A DNA stretch of 64,000 bases, taken from the NCBI RefSeq assembly GCF_005844325.1, contig NZ_SPFY01000001.1:62001-126000 (forward strand), given 5' to 3'. Below, one piece after another: positions 12,385 to 41,691 of the stretch (positions are counted from its first letter, which is position 1; every line of letters begins with the position of its first letter). Both the position numbers and the translations under genes were made by a program. The DNA comes from Collinsella aerofaciens. GTDB taxonomy: Bacteria > Actinomycetota > Coriobacteriia > Coriobacteriales > Coriobacteriaceae. Below the pieces are notes generated by a model. That model made no database searches, had not been told where the DNA came from, and saw only the letters and a program-made list of their open reading frames with translations.

Positions 12385-12433
12385 AGTAAGCCGATGCGAC
12401 AAAGGGGCTGTCCCTTTGTCGCATCGGCTTACT
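12385..12433. terminator. 22-bp perfect hairpin between the two palindromic repeats
   Basis: AGTAAGCCGATGCGACAAAG and two further bases (12385-12406) pair perfectly with 12412-12433 around a GCTGT loop. An A/T-rich stretch follows. It probably ends the nrdR-dut transcript, although no clean T run is present. Confidence 0.6.
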
Positions 12434-29651: not shown

Positions 29652-30017
29652 CTATTTTTCCTGTTTGTGTGCATCCCGGATCTTTTCAAAGGTGTCCTGA
29701 CTGATGGCGTGTTCAATCCGGCAAGCATCTCGCTCTGCAATTTCAGGGTCAACGCCAGCTGCGATAAATTGCTCTGTAAAGAACTGATGCCGCTCATAAA
29801 TTTTTTCGGCAACATTCCGGCCTGTTTCGGTCAAATGCAAAACGTAATCACTATCTACCGTTAAAAAGCCCCCTTCACGCAAAGCCGACACCGCATAGCT
29901 TACACTGGCTTTTGAAACTCCAACACGCCGTGCAACATCAATAGAGCGGACAGCACCGTGATTCTTTTGAAGAACCAGCACAGCCTCCAGATAATCCTCT
30001 CCGGACGCATGAATCAT
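29652..30017 (-). CDS. DtxR/MntR-family metal-dependent regulator
   Basis: 121 residues from the ATG at 30017 (MIHASGEDYLEAV), AAAGGAG upstream. HTH: RSIDVARRVGVSKASVSYAVSAL. Metal ligands of the MntR type are visible: E/D in GEDYLE, H in ERHQFF, and E and H in RIEHAI. It has no SH3-like third domain, as in MntR and streptococcal iron regulators. It is the last gene downstream of the transporter cargo and probably represses it when metal is plentiful. The equibactin locus of Streptococcus equi carries a DtxR-type regulator in a similar role. Confidence 0.87.
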   Translation of the reverse strand: MIHASGEDYLEAVLVLQKNHGAVRSIDVARRVGVSKASVSYAVSALREGGFLTVDSDYVLHLTETGRNVAEKIYERHQFFTEQFIAAGVDPEIAERDACRIEHAISQDTFEKIRDAHKQEK

Positions 30018-30031
30018 CACTATTGTCTCCT

Positions 30032-31780
30032 TTATGCAAGGCTCCAGCCGGAGGACTTTTTACGGATATTTACAAAATCCTGATAAATCCCGGCTTTTGC
30101 CATAAGCTCGTCATGGGTTCCCTGTTCGCTGATCCGTCCATCGGAGATCACCAAAATCTGATCTGCCTGACGGATGGTATTCAGGCGGTGTGCAATCACA
30201 AGCAATGTTTTACCCTTTACCAGTTCATTGATTGCCTCCTGGATATAGCTTTCATTATCGGTATCAACACTTGCAGTCGCTTCATCCAAAATGACAATCG
30301 GTGCGTCCTTCAAAATGCAGCGGGCGATAGAGATTCTTTGCTTTTCGCCGCCGGACAGAGTAGCGCCGCCTTCACCGATGACTGTCTGGAATCCATCTGG
30401 CAGCGCCATGATAAAATCATAGCAGCGGGCTTTTTTTGCAGCCTCATAGACTTCTTCCTCGGTAGCGTCCGGTTTACCCATGCTGATATTGTTGTAAATG
30501 GTATCCTGGAACAAGTACACCCTCTGGAAAACCATGCTGATCTGTTCCATCAGTTCGGCGAGAGGTACATCCCGAATATCTGTACCACGGATTGTCACTT
30601 TGCCGGATTTCACATCCCACAGCCGCGCCAGAAGGTTCGCAATCGTGGATTTGCCACCGCCAGACGGTCCCACAAGTGCGGTCATGGTATTCTTCTGCAT
30701 AGAGAAGCTGATGTTGTGCAGGACTTCCTTGTCCTGATAGGCGAAGGCCACATCGCTAAATTGTACTTCTGGCTGATCCGGCTGTGCCTGTGACAGAATA
30801 TGTTGATTTCCGTTATCGGGAAGTTCGGGCTCGTCCAAAACAGCTTCAATGCGGTCTAATGCGGCATTCATCACGGTCAGTCGGGTTGCTTCTCCATAAA
30901 GAGCTTTCAGAGGTCCAAAGAGATCAAAGACAAACAGCAGCACGCCCAAAAGATAAGCCAGGGAGAGTACGCCTTCCTGATGTAAAAAAACGGATAAACC
31001 GAAGATAGCGGCAATACCCACGCCATAGAGAATGTTTAAGCCAGTGGTCCACGGTGTCATTTTCTGCTCAAACTTCGTATTGACATCCCTTGATTTTTTG
31101 AAGTTTTCCGTTAATTCGTCAGATTTTTCTCCGAGCAGATTGTAACTTTTGATAACCCCAATTCCTTCAGCAAAAGACAAGACCGCATCCGTCAAATTCT
31201 CGCTTTGGTTTTGACGCCCGACAGCCTCCTTGAAGGAAACCTTATTCATATATTTTGCAACCAGCGATGCCAGCAAGGTAATGATTACCGCAATCAGCCC
31301 AAGTCTCCAATCCAGTACGAACATAAAAACAGCTAAAACCAAAGTAGACAGCATATAGCTCATCATGTTGCCAATGGTACTCATAGAAACTTCCTCAATG
31401 AAAACCATATCCGTACTGAGAACAGAGCTGATTTTGCCAATATTCCCCGATGTAAAGTAACCCATCGGCATTTTTCTTAAATGATTTCCCAACTCCATCC
31501 GTTTATCAGCAAAGATCATAAATCCAGCGGCACTTTGCAGACGGTCGCTCAAATAGTGAACCACTGTCTGAACCACTACAACAGCTAATAATCCAAGTCC
31601 GACAAACAGACAGGTCTTTCCAGTCAGCGTATTATCAGCAAACCCGGCAAAGACAATAAACGCCATGAAGATCGGCATTTTGGAGAGAATGGACTCGACA
31701 AATGCACATAGAAATGCAGCCTGAATACGGCTTTTATACCTCCCGGAGAGGTTCAGGATTCTTGAAATCAATGCAAACAT
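30032..31780 (-). CDS. Half ABC transporter (YbtP/Q- or IrtB-like), subunit 2
   Basis: 582 residues: six membrane segments in an exporter-type fold (about 1-310), then an ATPase domain with Walker A GPSGGGKST, signature LSGGEKQR and Walker B IVILDEAT. It begins directly after the stop of the partner gene, so a heterodimer is likely. Exporter-fold pairs next to a DtxR regulator and an ECF module match siderophore importers such as YbtPQ and IrtAB; the substrate here is inferred, and drug or peptide export cannot be excluded from the fold alone. Confidence 0.88.
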   Translation of the reverse strand: MFALISRILNLSGRYKSRIQAAFLCAFVESILSKMPIFMAFIVFAGFADNTLTGKTCLFVGLGLLAVVVVQTVVHYLSDRLQSAAGFMIFADKRMELGNHLRKMPMGYFTSGNIGKISSVLSTDMVFIEEVSMSTIGNMMSYMLSTLVLAVFMFVLDWRLGLIAVIITLLASLVAKYMNKVSFKEAVGRQNQSENLTDAVLSFAEGIGVIKSYNLLGEKSDELTENFKKSRDVNTKFEQKMTPWTTGLNILYGVGIAAIFGLSVFLHQEGVLSLAYLLGVLLFVFDLFGPLKALYGEATRLTVMNAALDRIEAVLDEPELPDNGNQHILSQAQPDQPEVQFSDVAFAYQDKEVLHNISFSMQKNTMTALVGPSGGGKSTIANLLARLWDVKSGKVTIRGTDIRDVPLAELMEQISMVFQRVYLFQDTIYNNISMGKPDATEEEVYEAAKKARCYDFIMALPDGFQTVIGEGGATLSGGEKQRISIARCILKDAPIVILDEATASVDTDNESYIQEAINELVKGKTLLVIAHRLNTIRQADQILVISDGRISEQGTHDELMAKAGIYQDFVNIRKKSSGWSLA

Positions 31781-33565
31781 TTATCTTCCCTCCTTTGCAG
31801 TAGATACTTTCCACTCGGCGCTGTCCTGAGCCGCTTTCCACAACTTTTGGTATTCTGGGCAAGCTTGAATCAGCTCCTGATGTTTTCCGGTTGCCACCAT
31901 CTTTCCGTGATCCATAACGCATATTTGATCTGCGTTCATTATAGCGGGAAGTTTGTGAGCGATAACTACCAAGGTTTTTCCCTTCACCAGCTCCGCAATA
32001 GCAGCCTCCATTTTTTCCTCATTTTCTGGATCAGCATAGGCCGTGGCCTCGTCAAGCACTACAATCGGGGCATCCTTCAATATTGCTCGCGCCAGGGAAA
32101 TTCGCTGGCGCTGCCCCCCGGAAAGCATTTTCCCCGCATCGCCCGCCATGGAGTGAATACCTTGCGGCAGCTTTTCCAGAAACTCCATACACTGGGCTTT
32201 CTTCGCCGCCTCCATTACTTCCTCATCGGTAGCATCCAAACGTCCAAGACGGATATTTTCCAGCAGGGAGGTGTTAAACAGGTACTGATCCTGAGCCACA
32301 TAGGAAATGCGGCTGTTCAATGCCTCCAGGCTCATATCACAAAGTTTCTGCCCGCCAATGGAAATGCTCCCTTTCTGCGGGTCATAGTAGTGGATCAACA
32401 GTTTTGCAAGGGTGCTCTTGCCAGAACCGGATTCACCAACCAGGGCAGTTTTTTGTCCTGCTTTTGCCACAAGGGTAATATCGTGGAGGACTTCGTTTTC
32501 CGCTATTATCGGTTTCCCATCTGGGCCAGGCTGTGTCGTTTGATACGCAAAGGAAACATGATCGTAAGAAATGTTAAAATCCTGTCCGTGGAAATCATCC
32601 TCAGCAGCTTGCAGCGGTGCCGCATTTAACATCTGTTCAAGTGCCGTGATCTTATAATTCAGATTCGGAATCGTCTCCATAAAGCCCAGTGCTTTCAGGA
32701 GAGGAATCCCAATGCTGAGGGAAAGGCAGAGGACTAAAATCAAATCAGGTAAAGTGCTTATGCCACAGAGAACAAACCATGCCCCAAGAGGCAAAGTCAG
32801 AATAACAGTGCAGGGCAGCAGACTTCCGTATATCGCCATCCAGGGCCAGGCGGCCTTATACCATGCCAAGGTATAATCCCGATAGTCCGTTACATCCTTG
32901 CGGAAGTTCTCGTAAGATTCACTCTCCCGGTTGAAAACCTTGACAACCTCCATACCATTGATGTACTCAATGATCGTGTTGTTCATTTTCTGTGCAGACT
33001 GATAGTAGGGACCCATGCGCTTCATTCCAACAGAGTACATAATGACCATGGAGAGCAGGCTGATCGGGATAGAGGCCAAAGACATAAGAGCCAGTTTCCA
33101 GTCCGCACAAAACATAGCAACATAAATCACCAGCGGGATCAGCAAATTTGCGATACCCTCCGGGACTGAATGAGCAAGGAGCAATTCCAAGCTGTCCACA
33201 TCATCGACAAACAGCTTTTTGATTGTCCCTGTCCCTTTTTCCTCCACAATGCCAAGGGGAAGTTTCTCAAACTTCTCTTGCAGAGATACCCGCAGCCGGA
33301 ACAATGTGTTATATGCTGCTTTATGAGAAATTGATAATCCCCATCCATATAAAACCGCCTGCAAAACAAGACAGATCAAAACCCCTATAACACGCAATAA
33401 AACAAATTCTGTCTCAACAGAATCGCCCATAACCAATGGTGAAATGACCTGATAGGCCAGCACAAAAGGCAGGACGCCCATAAGAACGCTGACCAGTACG
33501 ACAACCGTGGCCACATACATATTTTTCTTATATGGCCCTGCGTACTCAAAGATTTTTTTGAACAT
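31781..33565 (-). CDS. Half ABC transporter (YbtP/Q- or IrtA-like), subunit 1
   Basis: 594 residues with six membrane segments and an ATPase domain: Walker A GESGSGKST, signature LSGGQRQR, Walker B IVVLDEATAYADPENEE. No siderophore-interacting domain like that of mycobacterial IrtA is fused to its N terminus. Its stop directly abuts the start of subunit 2. A hairpin at 33609-33637 separates it from the ECF genes upstream, so the pair may be expressed at a lower level than the ECF genes or from its own promoter. Confidence 0.88.
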   Translation of the reverse strand: MFKKIFEYAGPYKKNMYVATVVVLVSVLMGVLPFVLAYQVISPLVMGDSVETEFVLLRVIGVLICLVLQAVLYGWGLSISHKAAYNTLFRLRVSLQEKFEKLPLGIVEEKGTGTIKKLFVDDVDSLELLLAHSVPEGIANLLIPLVIYVAMFCADWKLALMSLASIPISLLSMVIMYSVGMKRMGPYYQSAQKMNNTIIEYINGMEVVKVFNRESESYENFRKDVTDYRDYTLAWYKAAWPWMAIYGSLLPCTVILTLPLGAWFVLCGISTLPDLILVLCLSLSIGIPLLKALGFMETIPNLNYKITALEQMLNAAPLQAAEDDFHGQDFNISYDHVSFAYQTTQPGPDGKPIIAENEVLHDITLVAKAGQKTALVGESGSGKSTLAKLLIHYYDPQKGSISIGGQKLCDMSLEALNSRISYVAQDQYLFNTSLLENIRLGRLDATDEEVMEAAKKAQCMEFLEKLPQGIHSMAGDAGKMLSGGQRQRISLARAILKDAPIVVLDEATAYADPENEEKMEAAIAELVKGKTLVVIAHKLPAIMNADQICVMDHGKMVATGKHQELIQACPEYQKLWKAAQDSAEWKVSTAKEGR

Positions 33566-33608: not shown

Positions 33609-33637
33609 AAGAGGCCGCCAAAGTAAAGCGGCCTCTT
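33609..33637 (-). terminator. Hairpin between the ECF ATPase gene and the ABC pair
   Basis: AAGAGGCCGC / GCGGCCTCTT, a perfect 10-bp stem with a 9-base loop; on the minus strand TTGTTTTTG follows. It may terminate or attenuate the transcript between the two transporter groups. Confidence 0.7.
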
Positions 33638-33691: not shown

Positions 33692-35158
33692 TCACTGGCG
33701 GATTCGGAAAAAATCCAAAACCTTTTTACTGCCGGATTCGTCCAATGGATAGCTTTCTTTTATTTGCCCTTTTTCCATATGGACTACATACGAACATCCC
33801 GCCATCACCAACTCCGGATCATGCGTAATAACAAGAAGCGTTTTGCCCTGATCCGCGAGTGACTTCAAACTCCGCGCAACTTCCCACATATGTTTGAGAT
33901 CAAGCCCGCTGGTTGGTTCGTCAAACACAATGATCTCCCGGTTACTCACAATGGCAGATGCGATCGCTACCCGCTGTTTTTGCCCGCCGGAAAGAGAAAG
34001 CGGGTGCCTGTCTTTATATTCCAGCAGATCAAACTGTTTAAGGATTTCATCTGCAACAGTTTCATCCTCGTTGTCCATGCTCAGAAGCACTTCATCCATC
34101 ACGCTTTCGGTAAATAGCTGATGGCTGGTATCCTGCATTACCATGTAGCAATGTTTGAGCCGGGCTTTCCAATCAAGGGTTTTCCCGTCAACCTGCAAAA
34201 GGCCACACTTCTTTTCCAGTCCGCAAATACAGCGGGCCAAAGTAGATTTTCCAGCGCCATTCAGGCCGATAATGGCAATCGTTTCTCCAACAGGCAGTTC
34301 AGCACTCGGAATATGGAGGCTTTCCGGTTCCCGCTTTTTATACGCAAAGCAGAAATTTTGAAATTCCATCAGTTTAGCTGTATGCGCCTGATACTGATTC
34401 GCGGGTTTCAACTTCGAGAGAGAAAACGGCCGCAGCCCCATTTCTTTTCGAGTGCTATCCGATAAACTGTCAAATTCAGCAGGCGTGTATTCCCGTTCAA
34501 TCTCCCCATCTTTTACATACAGCACACGATCTGCAAGATCGTGAAGGTAGTAAAGGCGGTGTTCTGCAATCAGAATTGTTTTGCCCTGCTTTTTCCAGAG
34601 GCTCAAGACCTGCCGCAGGTCATCAATAGCAGCCATATCCAGATTAGAAGATGGTTCGTCAAGGACCATAATTCCCGGTAGCAATACACTTGATGAAGCA
34701 CAGGCTATTTTTTGCTTTTCGCCCCCGGACAGAGCAAACACGCTTCGCCCCATCAAATCTTCAATATGATAATCGGAAACTGTACGGTCAATCCTTTTCA
34801 GGATATCTTCCTGGGGATAGCCTAAATTTTCACAGGCAAAGGCTAATTCACTATCCGTATCCACGTTGAAAAACTGACTTTTGGGATTCTGGAATACAGA
34901 TCCCACCATAGCAGCCAAGTCATAAAGCGGCGTATCTGATACGCTTTTTCCGTCCAGAAGGACATCACCCTCTAAATTGCCCTCGTAATAATGAGGCACC
35001 AGCCCGTTTACCAAACGGGTAATCGTTGTTTTCCCACAGCCGGATTCTCCCGTGAGTAAAACAAATTCCCCTGTGTTTATGGTGAGATTGACATTTCTAA
35101 TCCCTCCGCCGCTGGATTCTTCACCATAAGAAAAAGAAACATTTTGAAAATCTATCAT
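33692..35158 (-). CDS. ECF transporter, fused AA' ATPase
   Basis: 488 residues from the ATG at 35158 (MIDFQNVSFSYG). Two ABC ATPase domains in one chain: the first with GESGCGKTT and LSGGEKQK, the second with GLNGAGKST and LSGGQKQR. It is the energising part of an energy-coupling factor transporter, working with the T and S proteins encoded just upstream. The start overlaps the T-gene stop by four bases (ATGA); CAGGAGG lies upstream. In EcfAA' from housekeeping operons the two ATPases are separate; fusion is common in dedicated ECF modules. Confidence 0.92.
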   Translation of the reverse strand: MIDFQNVSFSYGEESSGGGIRNVNLTINTGEFVLLTGESGCGKTTITRLVNGLVPHYYEGNLEGDVLLDGKSVSDTPLYDLAAMVGSVFQNPKSQFFNVDTDSELAFACENLGYPQEDILKRIDRTVSDYHIEDLMGRSVFALSGGEKQKIACASSSVLLPGIMVLDEPSSNLDMAAIDDLRQVLSLWKKQGKTILIAEHRLYYLHDLADRVLYVKDGEIEREYTPAEFDSLSDSTRKEMGLRPFSLSKLKPANQYQAHTAKLMEFQNFCFAYKKREPESLHIPSAELPVGETIAIIGLNGAGKSTLARCICGLEKKCGLLQVDGKTLDWKARLKHCYMVMQDTSHQLFTESVMDEVLLSMDNEDETVADEILKQFDLLEYKDRHPLSLSGGQKQRVAIASAIVSNREIIVFDEPTSGLDLKHMWEVARSLKSLADQGKTLLVITHDPELVMAGCSYVVHMEKGQIKESYPLDESGSKKVLDFFRIRQ

Positions 35159-35907
35159 GGCAAAATCCCTCCTGCGGAAATTATCGGGGAAGCAATCGCC
35201 CAAAACACTACAAAGCAACAAAACAAGATCAGCACCACATCGGCAAAATTGAATTTAAGCTGGCAAATGTTTGTGCGTTTGACAGGAGCACCGAGGCCAC
35301 GGGTAATTGCCGCAGCGGAAAGTTCCTCACCGATTTTCACGGAGCAGGTAATCATCGGGATCAGCTTATACTCCAATATTTTTGAAGATTTTTTCCCTCC
35401 AAGTTTAATCCCACGCATTTTCATAGCGTCACTGATTGCTTCTGACTCCTGAAAGACAGTTGGAAAGAAGCGGAACATGACCGTTAAGGGGATCGTCACT
35501 TCTTTAGGCATATGGATTCTTTCCATGCCGGAAATCAATTCACTGACCGTTGTTGTTTTCACTGCATAGGCAGCAATCGCAACACTGGGAAGGATTCGGC
35601 AGAAGAATCCTGTTGTAAACAGAACGAGGAAATTCAATATTCCCGTAAGGTGCGGTAAAACATAAATTTGAACAGCATAAAAAGCAGAAAACACAGCAAT
35701 ATAGCCCACAGCTTTTGCACATTGTTTCGAGGTAAGCAGCAATATAGCCGGAACCGTACAAAGAACAAGGCGGATCAGCCCCATAGCTTCTCCGCCTGTT
35801 CCACCCATGACAAAAATGCTTATGATGAAGATGAGCAACAGTTTTGTACGCGGATCGAGCCGTAACCCTTGTTCTGTTTTTTTGCTGAGCAGAATTTCCC
35901 GCGCCAT
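35155..35907 (-). CDS. ECF transporter, T component
   Basis: 250 residues from the ATG at 35907 (MAREILLSKKTEQ), with about five membrane segments and the EcfT coupling motif region (ARG-like segments near SDAMKMRGIKLG and AAAITRGLGAPV). It links the ATPases to the S component. The ATG overlaps the S-gene stop (TAATG), and its stop overlaps the ATPase start, so the three are translated as a unit. Confidence 0.9.
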   Translation of the reverse strand: MAREILLSKKTEQGLRLDPRTKLLLIFIISIFVMGGTGGEAMGLIRLVLCTVPAILLLTSKQCAKAVGYIAVFSAFYAVQIYVLPHLTGILNFLVLFTTGFFCRILPSVAIAAYAVKTTTVSELISGMERIHMPKEVTIPLTVMFRFFPTVFQESEAISDAMKMRGIKLGGKKSSKILEYKLIPMITCSVKIGEELSAAAITRGLGAPVKRTNICQLKFNFADVVLILFCCFVVFWAIASPIISAGGILP

Positions 35908-36503
35908 TATGCAATACCGGCACGCTGGAAGTGCTTTTTGCAAATAGCTTTCCCAATCACACCTCCGACAAGGCCAAACACAAAGCAGGCAACCAGCAGA
36001 ATAGGCGCAATCCACATAGGCATATATGTATTAAGGGTAGCTGCATATTCAGCGCCGTATCCTTCAGTCAACATTACCATATAGCTTTCACGGTTCAGGA
36101 AAATGGGAGCAAAGTTGCCAAACACCCAGATGCTGAACACGCCGCAGGAAAGAACTGTACTCTTTGCACTTTTGTAGTCCGCCTTTTTCAGGATCACGTC
36201 GGCCAACAGGCCGCCAACGAGACCAGTTACCATAGTAAGATAGCCGTTGCCGAAGAACACCATGATTAGGCCAATCAGGAAACCCATGATTGCAGTCATC
36301 CCGAATTTTTTAGCCTTTGTAACATACAGCATATAGGGGATGCCGCCAATCAAAGGGCACAGTACCGCCATCAGCGGAATAAAAATGGGGATAAAGCCAA
36401 GCATCGCCACCAGCATAACAATCACGACATAGATGACGGTGTAGATGCCGATAGTAATTAAATCTTTTCCCTCAAGCCGGGAACTTTTTTTCTGGGAACT
36501 CAT
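35907..36503 (-). CDS. ECF transporter, S component (MptD/Trep_Strep family)
   Basis: 198 residues, five to six membrane segments (first about residues 20-45: IGIYTVIYVVIVMLVAML). MptD-type S components form a separate family with no proved substrate; their genes recur next to YbtPQ-like ABC pairs, which points to a siderophore, metal chelate or related small molecule. AGGAGG lies eight bases before the ATG. First gene of the cargo transcript, directly behind the palindrome at 36534-36565. Confidence 0.85.
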   Translation of the reverse strand: MSSQKKSSRLEGKDLITIGIYTVIYVVIVMLVAMLGFIPIFIPLMAVLCPLIGGIPYMLYVTKAKKFGMTAIMGFLIGLIMVFFGNGYLTMVTGLVGGLLADVILKKADYKSAKSTVLSCGVFSIWVFGNFAPIFLNRESYMVMLTEGYGAEYAATLNTYMPMWIAPILLVACFVFGLVGGVIGKAICKKHFQRAGIA

Positions 36504-36533
36504 ACCAGTATCCTCCTCTGAGAAAATGAAAAT

Positions 36534-36565
36534 GTGGTGTGGTTAGAGTGTTCTAACCACACCAC
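36534..36565 (-). promoter_or_regulatory. Palindrome over the transcription start of the ECF operon (candidate repressor site)
   Basis: GTGGTGTGGTTAGA and TCTAACCACACCAC are perfect 14-bp arms around GTGT. The inner GGTTAGA...TCTAACC recalls DtxR-type half-sites, though with a wider spacing. It lies 2 bases downstream of the -10 box, over the expected start point, where a repressor such as the cargo's DtxR-type protein would block transcription. Confidence 0.6.
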
Positions 36566-36567
36566 GC

Positions 36568-36596
36568 ATTTTAGCAATTTCATGTCCAATATCCAA
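36568..36596 (-). promoter_or_regulatory. Promoter of the ECF/ABC cargo operon
   Basis: On the minus strand TTGGAT (36596-36591) and TAAAAT (36573-36568) are separated by 17 bp. It drives the S-T-A genes and possibly the ABC pair and regulator. Confidence 0.6.
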
Positions 36597-36615
36597 CCCA
36601 AAAGCAATTTCATTC

Positions 36616-36643
36616 TACCCAAAATCGGTATTTATTTTGGGTA
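36616..36643. promoter_or_regulatory. Upstream palindrome (candidate AraC-type site)
   Basis: TACCCAAAAT and ATTTTGGGTA, perfect 10-bp arms 8 bases apart, lie 20 bases upstream of the -35 box of the cargo promoter and 11 bases past the AraC gene stop. Position suits an activator site; it could instead be a weak terminator of the AraC gene. Confidence 0.5.
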
Positions 36644-36653
36644 TGCAAAGCAC

Positions 36654-37619
36654 CTATTTGATTCGGCTGGCCTCTCGATAATCTTTTGGCATAACTCCAT
36701 ACTTTTTCTTAAATGCAGCAGAAAAGTTGCTGGGCTTTGTATAACCCACAAGAACCGCTATCTGCCCAATGTTCATATTGCTCTCCAATAACAATCCTGC
36801 GGCTCGCTCTAACCGCTGCTCAATAACATACGCATGAACCGAAATGCCGTACATCATGGAGAATCCCCTTGATAATTTAGAGACGCTGATTTGAACCTGC
36901 CTTGCCAGTCCTTCACAGCTTGGCGCAAAGGCAAGCTCGCTGTCAATGATTCTCTTTGCCTCGATGATGCAATCACGTTCACTTTTTGATATGCAGCAGT
37001 ATTCCGGCGAGAGGATTCGCAGCTCCAACACTTCGCTCAAATATACTGACAGCAATTCGTGGATTTTGCTTTCCAGAAACAGATACCCAAGCCCACCCCG
37101 ATAATGTGTAAAGTCTTGTAACTCTGCGAAAATATGCTCCATATAGGGCGTTATGCTCACCTTTGAAATTCCGGTCAGCAGTTTCTTTTCATAGACGGTA
37201 ATCTCGCCATCCTCGAAGTAGTCCTGTAATAAACGTTTGAAATATGGAACGGGAATTTTGATGTTCTTAAAATAGAAGTCGCTGTTTTGCGCATAACAGA
37301 GAGACTCCATTTTCCCGTGTCCACGGTAAATGCAGGATTCTCCCTTTGCAAGACAAGCGCCCTCTCTGCTGCCTGCAATATTCCACGACACGCCGTCGTT
37401 CAGGCAGAACAGCATTTGAATATAGTCCTCGCTGTTAATCCCGCGCACATTCATGTCAGAAAAATAATTCATCTTCCAGTCTGAAACAACGGCACCCTGT
37501 TTTGTCACCACCTGCGCAATTTGTCCGGTTCCCATATCAGAAGGAATCGGGATCGTTACGGTCTGCGGTGAATTGGAGAGCAGATCCCGATAGAGGTTGT
37601 TCATGTATTCGCTTGTCAT
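36654..37619 (-). CDS. AraC-family transcriptional regulator (YbtA-like context)
   Basis: 321 residues. The C-terminal AraC domain has both HTH units (LARQVQISVSKLSRGFSMMYG and MNIGQIAVLVGYTKPSNFSAAFKKKYG). The ~220-residue N-terminal domain is a ligand domain without a clear family. It lies upstream of the transporter operon in the same orientation. In yersiniabactin systems YbtA, an AraC protein, activates the uptake genes when the siderophore is present; a similar role is inferred. AAAGGAGGG lies seven bases before the ATG. Confidence 0.88.
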   Translation of the reverse strand: MTSEYMNNLYRDLLSNSPQTVTIPIPSDMGTGQIAQVVTKQGAVVSDWKMNYFSDMNVRGINSEDYIQMLFCLNDGVSWNIAGSREGACLAKGESCIYRGHGKMESLCYAQNSDFYFKNIKIPVPYFKRLLQDYFEDGEITVYEKKLLTGISKVSITPYMEHIFAELQDFTHYRGGLGYLFLESKIHELLSVYLSEVLELRILSPEYCCISKSERDCIIEAKRIIDSELAFAPSCEGLARQVQISVSKLSRGFSMMYGISVHAYVIEQRLERAAGLLLESNMNIGQIAVLVGYTKPSNFSAAFKKKYGVMPKDYREASRIK

Positions 37620-37665
37620 TGGATGCCCTCCTTTTTTCGGTTAGCAGTGACTAATGTACTAATAT

Positions 37666-37694
37666 AGTTTACACGATTTACGCCTGAAAGTCAA
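37666..37694 (-). promoter_or_regulatory. Promoter of the AraC gene
   Basis: On the minus strand TTGACT (37694-37689), 17 bp, TAAACT (37671-37666). The leader to the AraC ATG is about 40 bases. Confidence 0.6.
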
Positions 37695-40258: not shown

Positions 40259-41101
40259 TTACTCCCGTGCCAGTTCATATAGGCTGCGGATGGATTCCAT
40301 GACCGTATGCCACGACAGGTCGGCGGCATAGGAAAACTTCTTCTGATAAGCCCGCCACAGCTTTTCCATGTTCGGGTCGGCCTCAACTTCATCAAAGGCC
40401 GCAGGCGCGTCGGCAAGATACTTCTCTGTACCGCGTTTCCTGGCCGTTGCAATGAGCGCCGCACGGAGATCGGCTGGGACGATGCTCTGGCCGTGGAGCT
40501 GGCTCAGAATGTGCAGATCATAGAAATCTCTCATGCGGGTGTTGGTGGTGGCGCGGGACACGACAGTTTCCAGCTTCTCAGCCAGAACAGTTTCCAGATT
40601 GTACGCCAAAATTTCAATGGAACGATCCTCCAGCATCAGCTTGAAGCTGTAACGCACTTCGCGGGGCGTGATGGCGTCGCCGGTGGAAATGTCGATCTTG
40701 AGCGGCGTTATCACGCCGTCAAACTCCGTTTCCATGCTGACACGGATGCCCGGATACTCGGCCTCGTCCATGATCTCGGAAATGCGCTTCACCCGGAACC
40801 CCACGCCATCGTCCACCGGTACGGAGATGATGGAGGCAATCATGTTCTCCACGTCCTCGATGCCGACCGTCGCACCCTTTACGGTCGCGTCAATGTCCAT
40901 CGTGGAGCGGGCGTCAAGGCCGACCATTGCAGCCACCAGCATCCCGCCTTTAAGGATGAACTTGTCCCGATATTCCGAAAGAGAAATGCGCTCCAGAAAG
41001 CGCTCCATCATGTAATTGCGCATCAGGATTTGCGCATCTGCGGATTTGTCCTTGGAGAGATTGCGTATCAGGTCTTTGAGCTGCCGTGCAGTCTTAATCA
41101 T
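40259..41101 (-). CDS. AbiEii-type nucleotidyltransferase toxin
   Basis: 280 residues. The nucleotidyltransferase motif GG...S/T-x-D-x-D (ILKGGMLVAAM ... STMDIDATV, about residues 50-75) identifies the AbiEii/MenT family, which inactivates tRNAs by adding nucleotides and stops growth, for example after phage infection. Its start overlaps the antitoxin stop by four bases. In the ICE the pair could stabilise the element and protect the host from phage. Confidence 0.9.
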   Translation of the reverse strand: MIKTARQLKDLIRNLSKDKSADAQILMRNYMMERFLERISLSEYRDKFILKGGMLVAAMVGLDARSTMDIDATVKGATVGIEDVENMIASIISVPVDDGVGFRVKRISEIMDEAEYPGIRVSMETEFDGVITPLKIDISTGDAITPREVRYSFKLMLEDRSIEILAYNLETVLAEKLETVVSRATTNTRMRDFYDLHILSQLHGQSIVPADLRAALIATARKRGTEKYLADAPAAFDEVEADPNMEKLWRAYQKKFSYAADLSWHTVMESIRSLYELARE

Positions 41102-41691
41102 AAGAGTACCTCCAAATACTGCCGAAGCAGTTTTTCAACACGGAACATCTGCGCATAGCGCATCAGCTTCCGCAAGTCCTTGTCTTTTCGTTTTGCGTAT
41201 TGCTTGAGTGCATCCTGAAAGGTCTGCATCTCGATTCCACTGCGGCTGCGGATCAGATCGCAGATGGTACGCTCCATATCATAGACGGGAACCGGGTTGC
41301 CAAAGGGCGTGTTCATCGTGACGATCCCCACATCATGCAATTCTTTCTTGATGGTGTAGACCTTGATGCCGTCTGCTTGCAGGCTGGCAGGATTGTAGCC
41401 GGTCTTGACCGTGATGGAATACGGATTCGGCTCCCGGTCGGTCAGGTCATGGAAAAACAGCGCGCTTTCATGGGAGAATACGGCCTGCGCACAGCGAAGG
41501 TGCAGCAGGTACATGGCGTCCGTCCATGCGTCAGGCGAAACATAAACACCGTGCGCGGCCTGCTCTACGCCGTGCTGCTTGGCGTAGGCGTAAAACGTGG
41601 ACTTGGAAATACCGATTTCCAAAACCTGCGCGGTTTTGACGATCCCATTGTTTTGCTGAAAAAGCAGATCAAGCCGGTCGTAGGCGGTCAT
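41098..41691 (-). CDS. AbiEi-type antitoxin and autorepressor
   Basis: 197 residues: an N-terminal winged helix (RLDLLFQQNNGIVKTAQVLEIGISKSTFYAYAKQHGV) and the C-terminal AbiEi domain. AbiEi binds an inverted repeat in its own promoter; a matching 13-bp palindrome lies just upstream (41704-41737). It precedes the toxin gene, the usual order for type IV AbiE systems. Confidence 0.9.
   Translation of the reverse strand: MTAYDRLDLLFQQNNGIVKTAQVLEIGISKSTFYAYAKQHGVEQAAHGVYVSPDAWTDAMYLLHLRCAQAVFSHESALFFHDLTDREPNPYSITVKTGYNPASLQADGIKVYTIKKELHDVGIVTMNTPFGNPVPVYDMERTICDLIRSRSGIEMQTFQDALKQYAKRKDKDLRKLMRYAQMFRVEKLLRQYLEVLL

Follow-up and report, generated by a model that had tools for sequence, protein, structure and literature searches.

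A putative DtxR-type operator with RNA-hairpin-like arms in the control region of a probable metal-chelate uptake cassette

Introduction

The iron boxes of DtxR/IdeR and MtsR/SloR carry a TTAG-N6-CTAA spacing within their consensus palindromes, and the yersiniabactin genes are subject to iron repression via Fur. Activation of the yersiniabactin genes involves YbtA, an AraC-type protein (PMC3672683). In the horse pathogen Streptococcus equi, the equibactin locus of ICESe2 encodes EqbA, a DtxR-like repressor with a 36-bp palindromic operator, AACTATTATT-GTTAG-ATGTAT-CTAAC-AATAATAGTT, of 15-bp arms (PMC3672683). The EMSA shift of EqbA required this palindrome, binding after EDTA was restored by Fe2+ and Zn2+ and less so by Mn2+, and deletion of eqbA raised the eqbE transcript 13-fold (PMC3672683). 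Its authors called the operator unlike other iron boxes (PMC3672683). We found no paper on this operator outside S. equi in the open-licence literature.

Results

The region studied here lies in a 64-kb stretch of DNA, the window, and governs an ECF/ABC uptake operon that has spread by horizontal transfer and probably imports a metal chelate (Table 1). Serine recombinases and relaxase pieces near the operon fit a mobile element. The protein encoded by the last gene of the operon scored above the Pfam cut-off for both PF01325 and PF02742 and showed, upon alignment, Asp at what we take to be the MntR-type metal-ligand position and Cys at what we take to be the DtxR-type one. Elsewhere, the window holds an AbiEii-type toxin (Pfam) with an adjoining weak AbiEi-type match (40259-41691); its longest inverted repeat, with perfect 22-bp arms, is found at 12385-12433.

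Table 1. Features of the uptake operon and its control region (window coordinates)
Feature	Position	Strand
122-aa metal repressor of DtxR/MntR type, encoded at the operon end	29652..30020	-
ABC transporter (membrane + ATPase) 2	30032..31780	-
ABC transporter (membrane + ATPase) 1	31781..33565	-
Double ECF ATPase	33692..35221	-
CbiQ-like ECF T component	35155..36015	-
MptD/Trep_Strep family ECF transporter S component	35907..36503	-
Terminator-like T-rich tract (ATTTTCATTT) following the hairpin; edge of mosaic boundary	36524..36533	-
Palindrome, 14-bp arms, 4-nt loop, over predicted operon start; RNA-hairpin-like arms	36534..36565	-
Core GTTAG-N6-CTAAC, EqbA/DtxR-type operator core	36542..36557	.
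-10 TAAAAT, TG one base upstream (extended -10)	36568..36573	-
-35 TTGGAT, abuts proximal direct repeat	36591..36596	-
Proximal TTTTGGGT repeat, probable AraC half-site adjoining the -35	36596..36603	-
10-bp-arm palindrome, 8-nt loop; second arm unconserved, judged incidental	36616..36643	-
Distal TTTTGGGT repeat, within the 10-bp-arm palindrome; 21 bp farther upstream than the proximal copy	36617..36624	-
AraC-family regulator, directly upstream of the S-component operon, same strand	36654..37619	-
Second core ATTAG-N6-CTAAC; 36 bp ahead of the start codon of araC	37640..37655	.
araC promoter TTGACT-N17-TAAACT, consensus match	37666..37694	-

Near-identical S genes were found in Roseburia, Blautia, Emergencia, Faecalibacterium, Intestinimonas, Butyribacter and others, and more distant relatives at 66% and, in whole-genome searches, down to about 45%, all homologues being species representatives and an uneven sample. 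The promoter region was without a match in the plasmid collection, no relative was found in viral contigs, and phages yielded a single S-component match of 47%. One contig (G333 contig 12, 150-220 kb; L125-L128) carries related S/T/ATPase/ABC/DtxR/AraC cassettes in an array, and most of them have a GTTAG-N6-CTAAC site.

Identity to the window was not uniform along these relatives. At L015-L020, L022 and L026 it amounted to 64-78% over araC and promoter; from the palindrome edge onward, across the S, T and ATPase genes, it rose to about 94-100% and was mostly 98-100%. At L021 this latter stretch was about 90-97% identical. The first jump fell at 36500-36540 of the window, and a second break, which separates the ATPase gene from the first ABC gene at about 33600, was seen in L014, L017, L019 and L020. 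At L187, the araC module of the window was joined to a different S gene. These breaks and L187 thus show exchange of a regulator-promoter module and a transport module that meet beside the operator. At the second boundary, between the ATPase and ABC genes, a GC-rich inverted repeat was observed (AAGAGGCCGC / GCGGCCTCTT, 33609-33637), after which the minus strand reads TGTTTTTG.

The initial annotation had described two perfect palindromes around the transporter promoter and proposed dual control, by a DtxR-type repressor at the one with 14-bp arms and by AraC at the one with 10-bp arms. The former is indeed perfect and lies over the predicted start. A chance origin of its arms could be ruled out, as no perfect palindrome (loop of at most 10) had arms longer than 11 bp when the 64-kb window was shuffled 20 times with a Markov model. 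Its core reads GTTAG-AACACT-CTAAC. Of 57 distinct regions upstream of ECF S-component homologues, 47 had this GTTAG-N6-CTAAC motif, 38 exactly and nine with one mismatch, while none of four control patterns was matched exactly in the same regions. In 18 genomes, RGTTAGN6CTAACY occurred at 167 sites versus 11 for the backwards control, a 15-fold excess. A search of related cargos, as the annotation had suggested, thus found the 14-bp-arm element conserved and its core nearly fixed. The core was retained even where no AraC resembling that of the window lies next to it (L024, L025 and others). Arms of 14 bp in the window reached 15 bp in relatives; at most sites the core alone was conserved and the arms were short, at some loci of only 5-6 bp with the core still fixed.

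Since the core is identical to that of the EqbA operator and conserved across distant relatives, the initial proposal that a DtxR-type repressor would act at the 14-bp-arm palindrome is well supported on sequence grounds. Which protein does so within the cargo, we infer from EqbA and from linkage: a DtxR-type gene closes the operon in the window and, judged by position, in most cargo relatives checked. No linked DtxR match was found in three Faecalibacterium cargos, though the site is kept, and there the protein acting on it must be a chromosomal homologue (about 50% identity), if any acts at all. In one Faecalibacterium cargo (L129:16069-16494), a response-regulator-like winged-helix ORF, recognized by eye in the translation, occupies the usual place of the DtxR gene after the operon. 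A host regulator instead of the cargo DtxR might be considered as the user of the sites, given that many GTTAG-N6-CTAAC sites lie elsewhere in these genomes, where the motif is common in host chromosomes, and that cargos devoid of a linked DtxR still keep theirs. The linkage in most cargos checked speaks against such a regulator, which we regard as rather improbable, although shared use of the sites would still be compatible with it.

The transporter promoter was present where it had been proposed, as TTGGAT-N17-TAAAAT on the minus strand. Its hexamers do not exceed shuffle background (11 promoter-like sites versus 13.6 expected); support comes instead from the extended -10, kept in an alignment of close relatives. 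From this promoter, transcription is predicted to start under the 14-bp-arm palindrome, a few bases inside its left arm.

The second palindrome is real as well, with perfect arms that end 19 bp upstream of the -35, but perfect 10-bp arms occur about 0.3 times per Markov shuffle of the 64-kb window and are weak evidence alone. It is intact in the window and L014 only. A single base breaks it at L187, where AraC is 100% identical, and its araC-side arm is absent from other relatives with AraC proteins 53-75% identical. What is kept is a direct repeat of TTTTGGGT, 21 bp from start to start, which uses only one palindrome arm. Across 13 AraC-linked promoters (AraC 53-100% identical), this repeat always lies 46 bp before the operator core with its proximal copy touching the -35, and it is co-inherited with the AraC protein; it was not evident at L196, where AraC is 42% identical. 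AraC-type class II activators use direct repeats of 21-bp periodicity next to the -35. The TTTTGGGT repeat is therefore a probable site for an activator of this class. We rejected the 10-bp-arm palindrome as the AraC site, its second arm not being conserved; perfect as it is in the window and L014, binding of AraC there appears most improbable in view of the missing arm in relatives and the broken copy beside an identical AraC. Dual control is thus well supported and activation by AraC is favored by the direct repeat, but the initial annotation had assigned AraC to the wrong element.

A second DtxR-type core, which had been overlooked in that annotation, precedes araC itself. Its distance to the start codon is 35-36 bp in all close homologues as in the window; 14 of 15 distinct araC upstream regions contained a core at two mismatches or fewer and one lacked it. 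Thus araC, too, is probably controlled by the same DtxR-type repressor.

A further property of the 14-bp-arm palindrome concerns its outer arms, the sequences of which vary between loci while their complementarity is kept. In 20 distinct sequences with 13 pairs each, 99.2% of the arm cells were paired and 24 cells showed double changes, compared with 5.0 in shuffles (0/500); sliding the partners destroyed the signal, leaving 0-2 such cells. Single departures from pairing, read on the sense strand of 22 sequences, comprised 16 G-U, one A-C and two others, a tally that counts related rows more than once and that our own grouping brings to about 12 events versus 1. The same tendency was seen at sites with the one-off core RGTTAGN6CTAAT from eight genomes, for which a hand tally with several ambiguous sites gave about 15 versus 5. 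Departures of the G-U kind only are expected from pairing in a transcript, whereas symmetry kept for a dimer on DNA should yield as many A-C as G-U departures. The G-U excess could be due in part to common descent or to stronger constraint on the left arm. This covariation, also missed initially, suggests that the arms are under selection as an RNA hairpin as well, either as a terminator of araC or as a 5' stem-loop.

Folding of the palindrome RNA of the window gave -28.2 kcal/mol (z -5.7), and the hairpin, with 14 pairs, 7 of them GC, followed by ATTTTCATTT, is the terminator-like match with the most pairs on the minus strand of the region. As a terminator it is likely weak, since the T run is interrupted. 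A strict terminator-like rule was passed by 11 of 19 oriented long-arm sites and by none of 60 short-arm sites, a contrast that partly follows from the minimum stem of the rule. We were not convinced that long arms make up for the lack of a separate terminator: one lay upstream at 9 of 60 short-arm and 1 of 19 long-arm sites. A search against Rfam returned no family at gathering score, only sub-threshold chance matches. Given the predicted start inside the left arm, the outermost 3-4 pairs would fall outside the operon's own mRNA and the full stem would form only in RNA reading through from araC. An RNA role would therefore rest on read-through transcripts, and a terminator or insulator is our first choice for it, a 5' stem-loop our second.

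Could the palindrome be a DNA operator only, its long arms stemming from co-operative binding by two repressor dimers or from co-evolution with repressor variants? The many sites that conserve just the core with short arms would agree with this, as would the 15-bp arms of the EqbA operator. We nevertheless hold it to be unlikely, though deserving serious attention, because the arm sequence is free to vary with symmetry kept, the sense-strand departures favor G-U over A-C by 16 to 1 with the same lean in the hand-tallied one-off-core survey, and a T-rich tract follows the arms. Conversely, the fold energy and the number of pairs might point to a pure intrinsic terminator or 5' stem-loop to which no repressor binds. 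This is very unlikely, as the core stays fixed even with 5-6-bp arms and is identical to that of a DtxR-family operator tested by EMSA. We consider the balance to be even for the reading in which one 32-bp element combines a DtxR-family operator in its core, acting as DNA, with a hairpin in its arms, acting as RNA and tolerating G-U but not A-C; it would repress the transporter promoter and either insulate it from araC or protect the mRNA, across a large family of uptake cassettes on gut mobile elements.

Discussion

The control region is real and conserved, and the elements, their conservation, the covariation of the arms and the fixed geometry were observed here. On this basis the following model may be put forward, which as a whole, with DtxR repression at both cores, AraC at the direct repeat and a hairpin acting at the RNA level, we judge likely. 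The metal-loaded DtxR/MntR-type protein of the cargo would bind GTTAG-N6-CTAAC over the transporter start point and ATTAG-N6-CTAAC over that of araC, shutting both promoters. When metal runs short, AraC would be made and, together with a ligand, perhaps the imported chelate, would bind the two TTTTGGGT repeats 21 bp apart and activate the transporter promoter. The transporter operator would be lengthened into a 13-15-bp hairpin with a T-rich tract that is kept at the RNA level and most likely terminates read-through from araC, caps the transporter mRNA at its 5' end, or does both. The metal, the ligand of AraC, the start site, the role of the hairpin and the pairing of protein and site in the cargo are what we infer in this model.

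The present data connect a family of cassettes for metal uptake, widespread in gut Firmicutes but little studied, with one repressor site that has been tested by experiment, and the GTTAG-N6-CTAAC motif can be used for calling the regulon across genomes. They also provide a clear case of an operator that seemingly doubles as an RNA element, and of a regulator-promoter module that recombines separately from transport genes with the junction at the operator's edge. The RNA-level role suggested by the arm sequences is the newest part.

Several described systems share features with this locus. Compared here by its genes, the cargo of the conjugative Clostridioides difficile element 023_CTn1 (PMC6814731) also brings together a DtxR/MntR-type regulator and AraC, ECF and ABC genes; it differs in carrying a siderophore synthesis cluster (PMC6814731). 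The yersiniabactin system resembles the window in pairing a metal repressor with an AraC activator that may sense the chelate, whereas the repressor here is of DtxR type and not Fur, the mobile element is Gram-positive and the transporter has ECF S, T and A components. With the DtxR/IdeR and MtsR/SloR boxes, the TTAG-N6-CTAA spacing is common, but outer bases and arm length differ. The likeness to EqbA and ICESe2, compared here by operator, lies in the identical GTTAG-N6-CTAAC core, the long arms and the linked DtxR-family gene; in both cases, moreover, there is a DtxR-like repressor on a mobile element, an ICE for EqbA, and the equibactin cluster has ABC genes for iron uptake. The site in the window differs in its place across the start point predicted for an ECF/ABC operon in which no NRPS genes were seen, in its different arm sequence, in the AraC activator and the site preceding araC, and in the RNA-type covariation of its arms.
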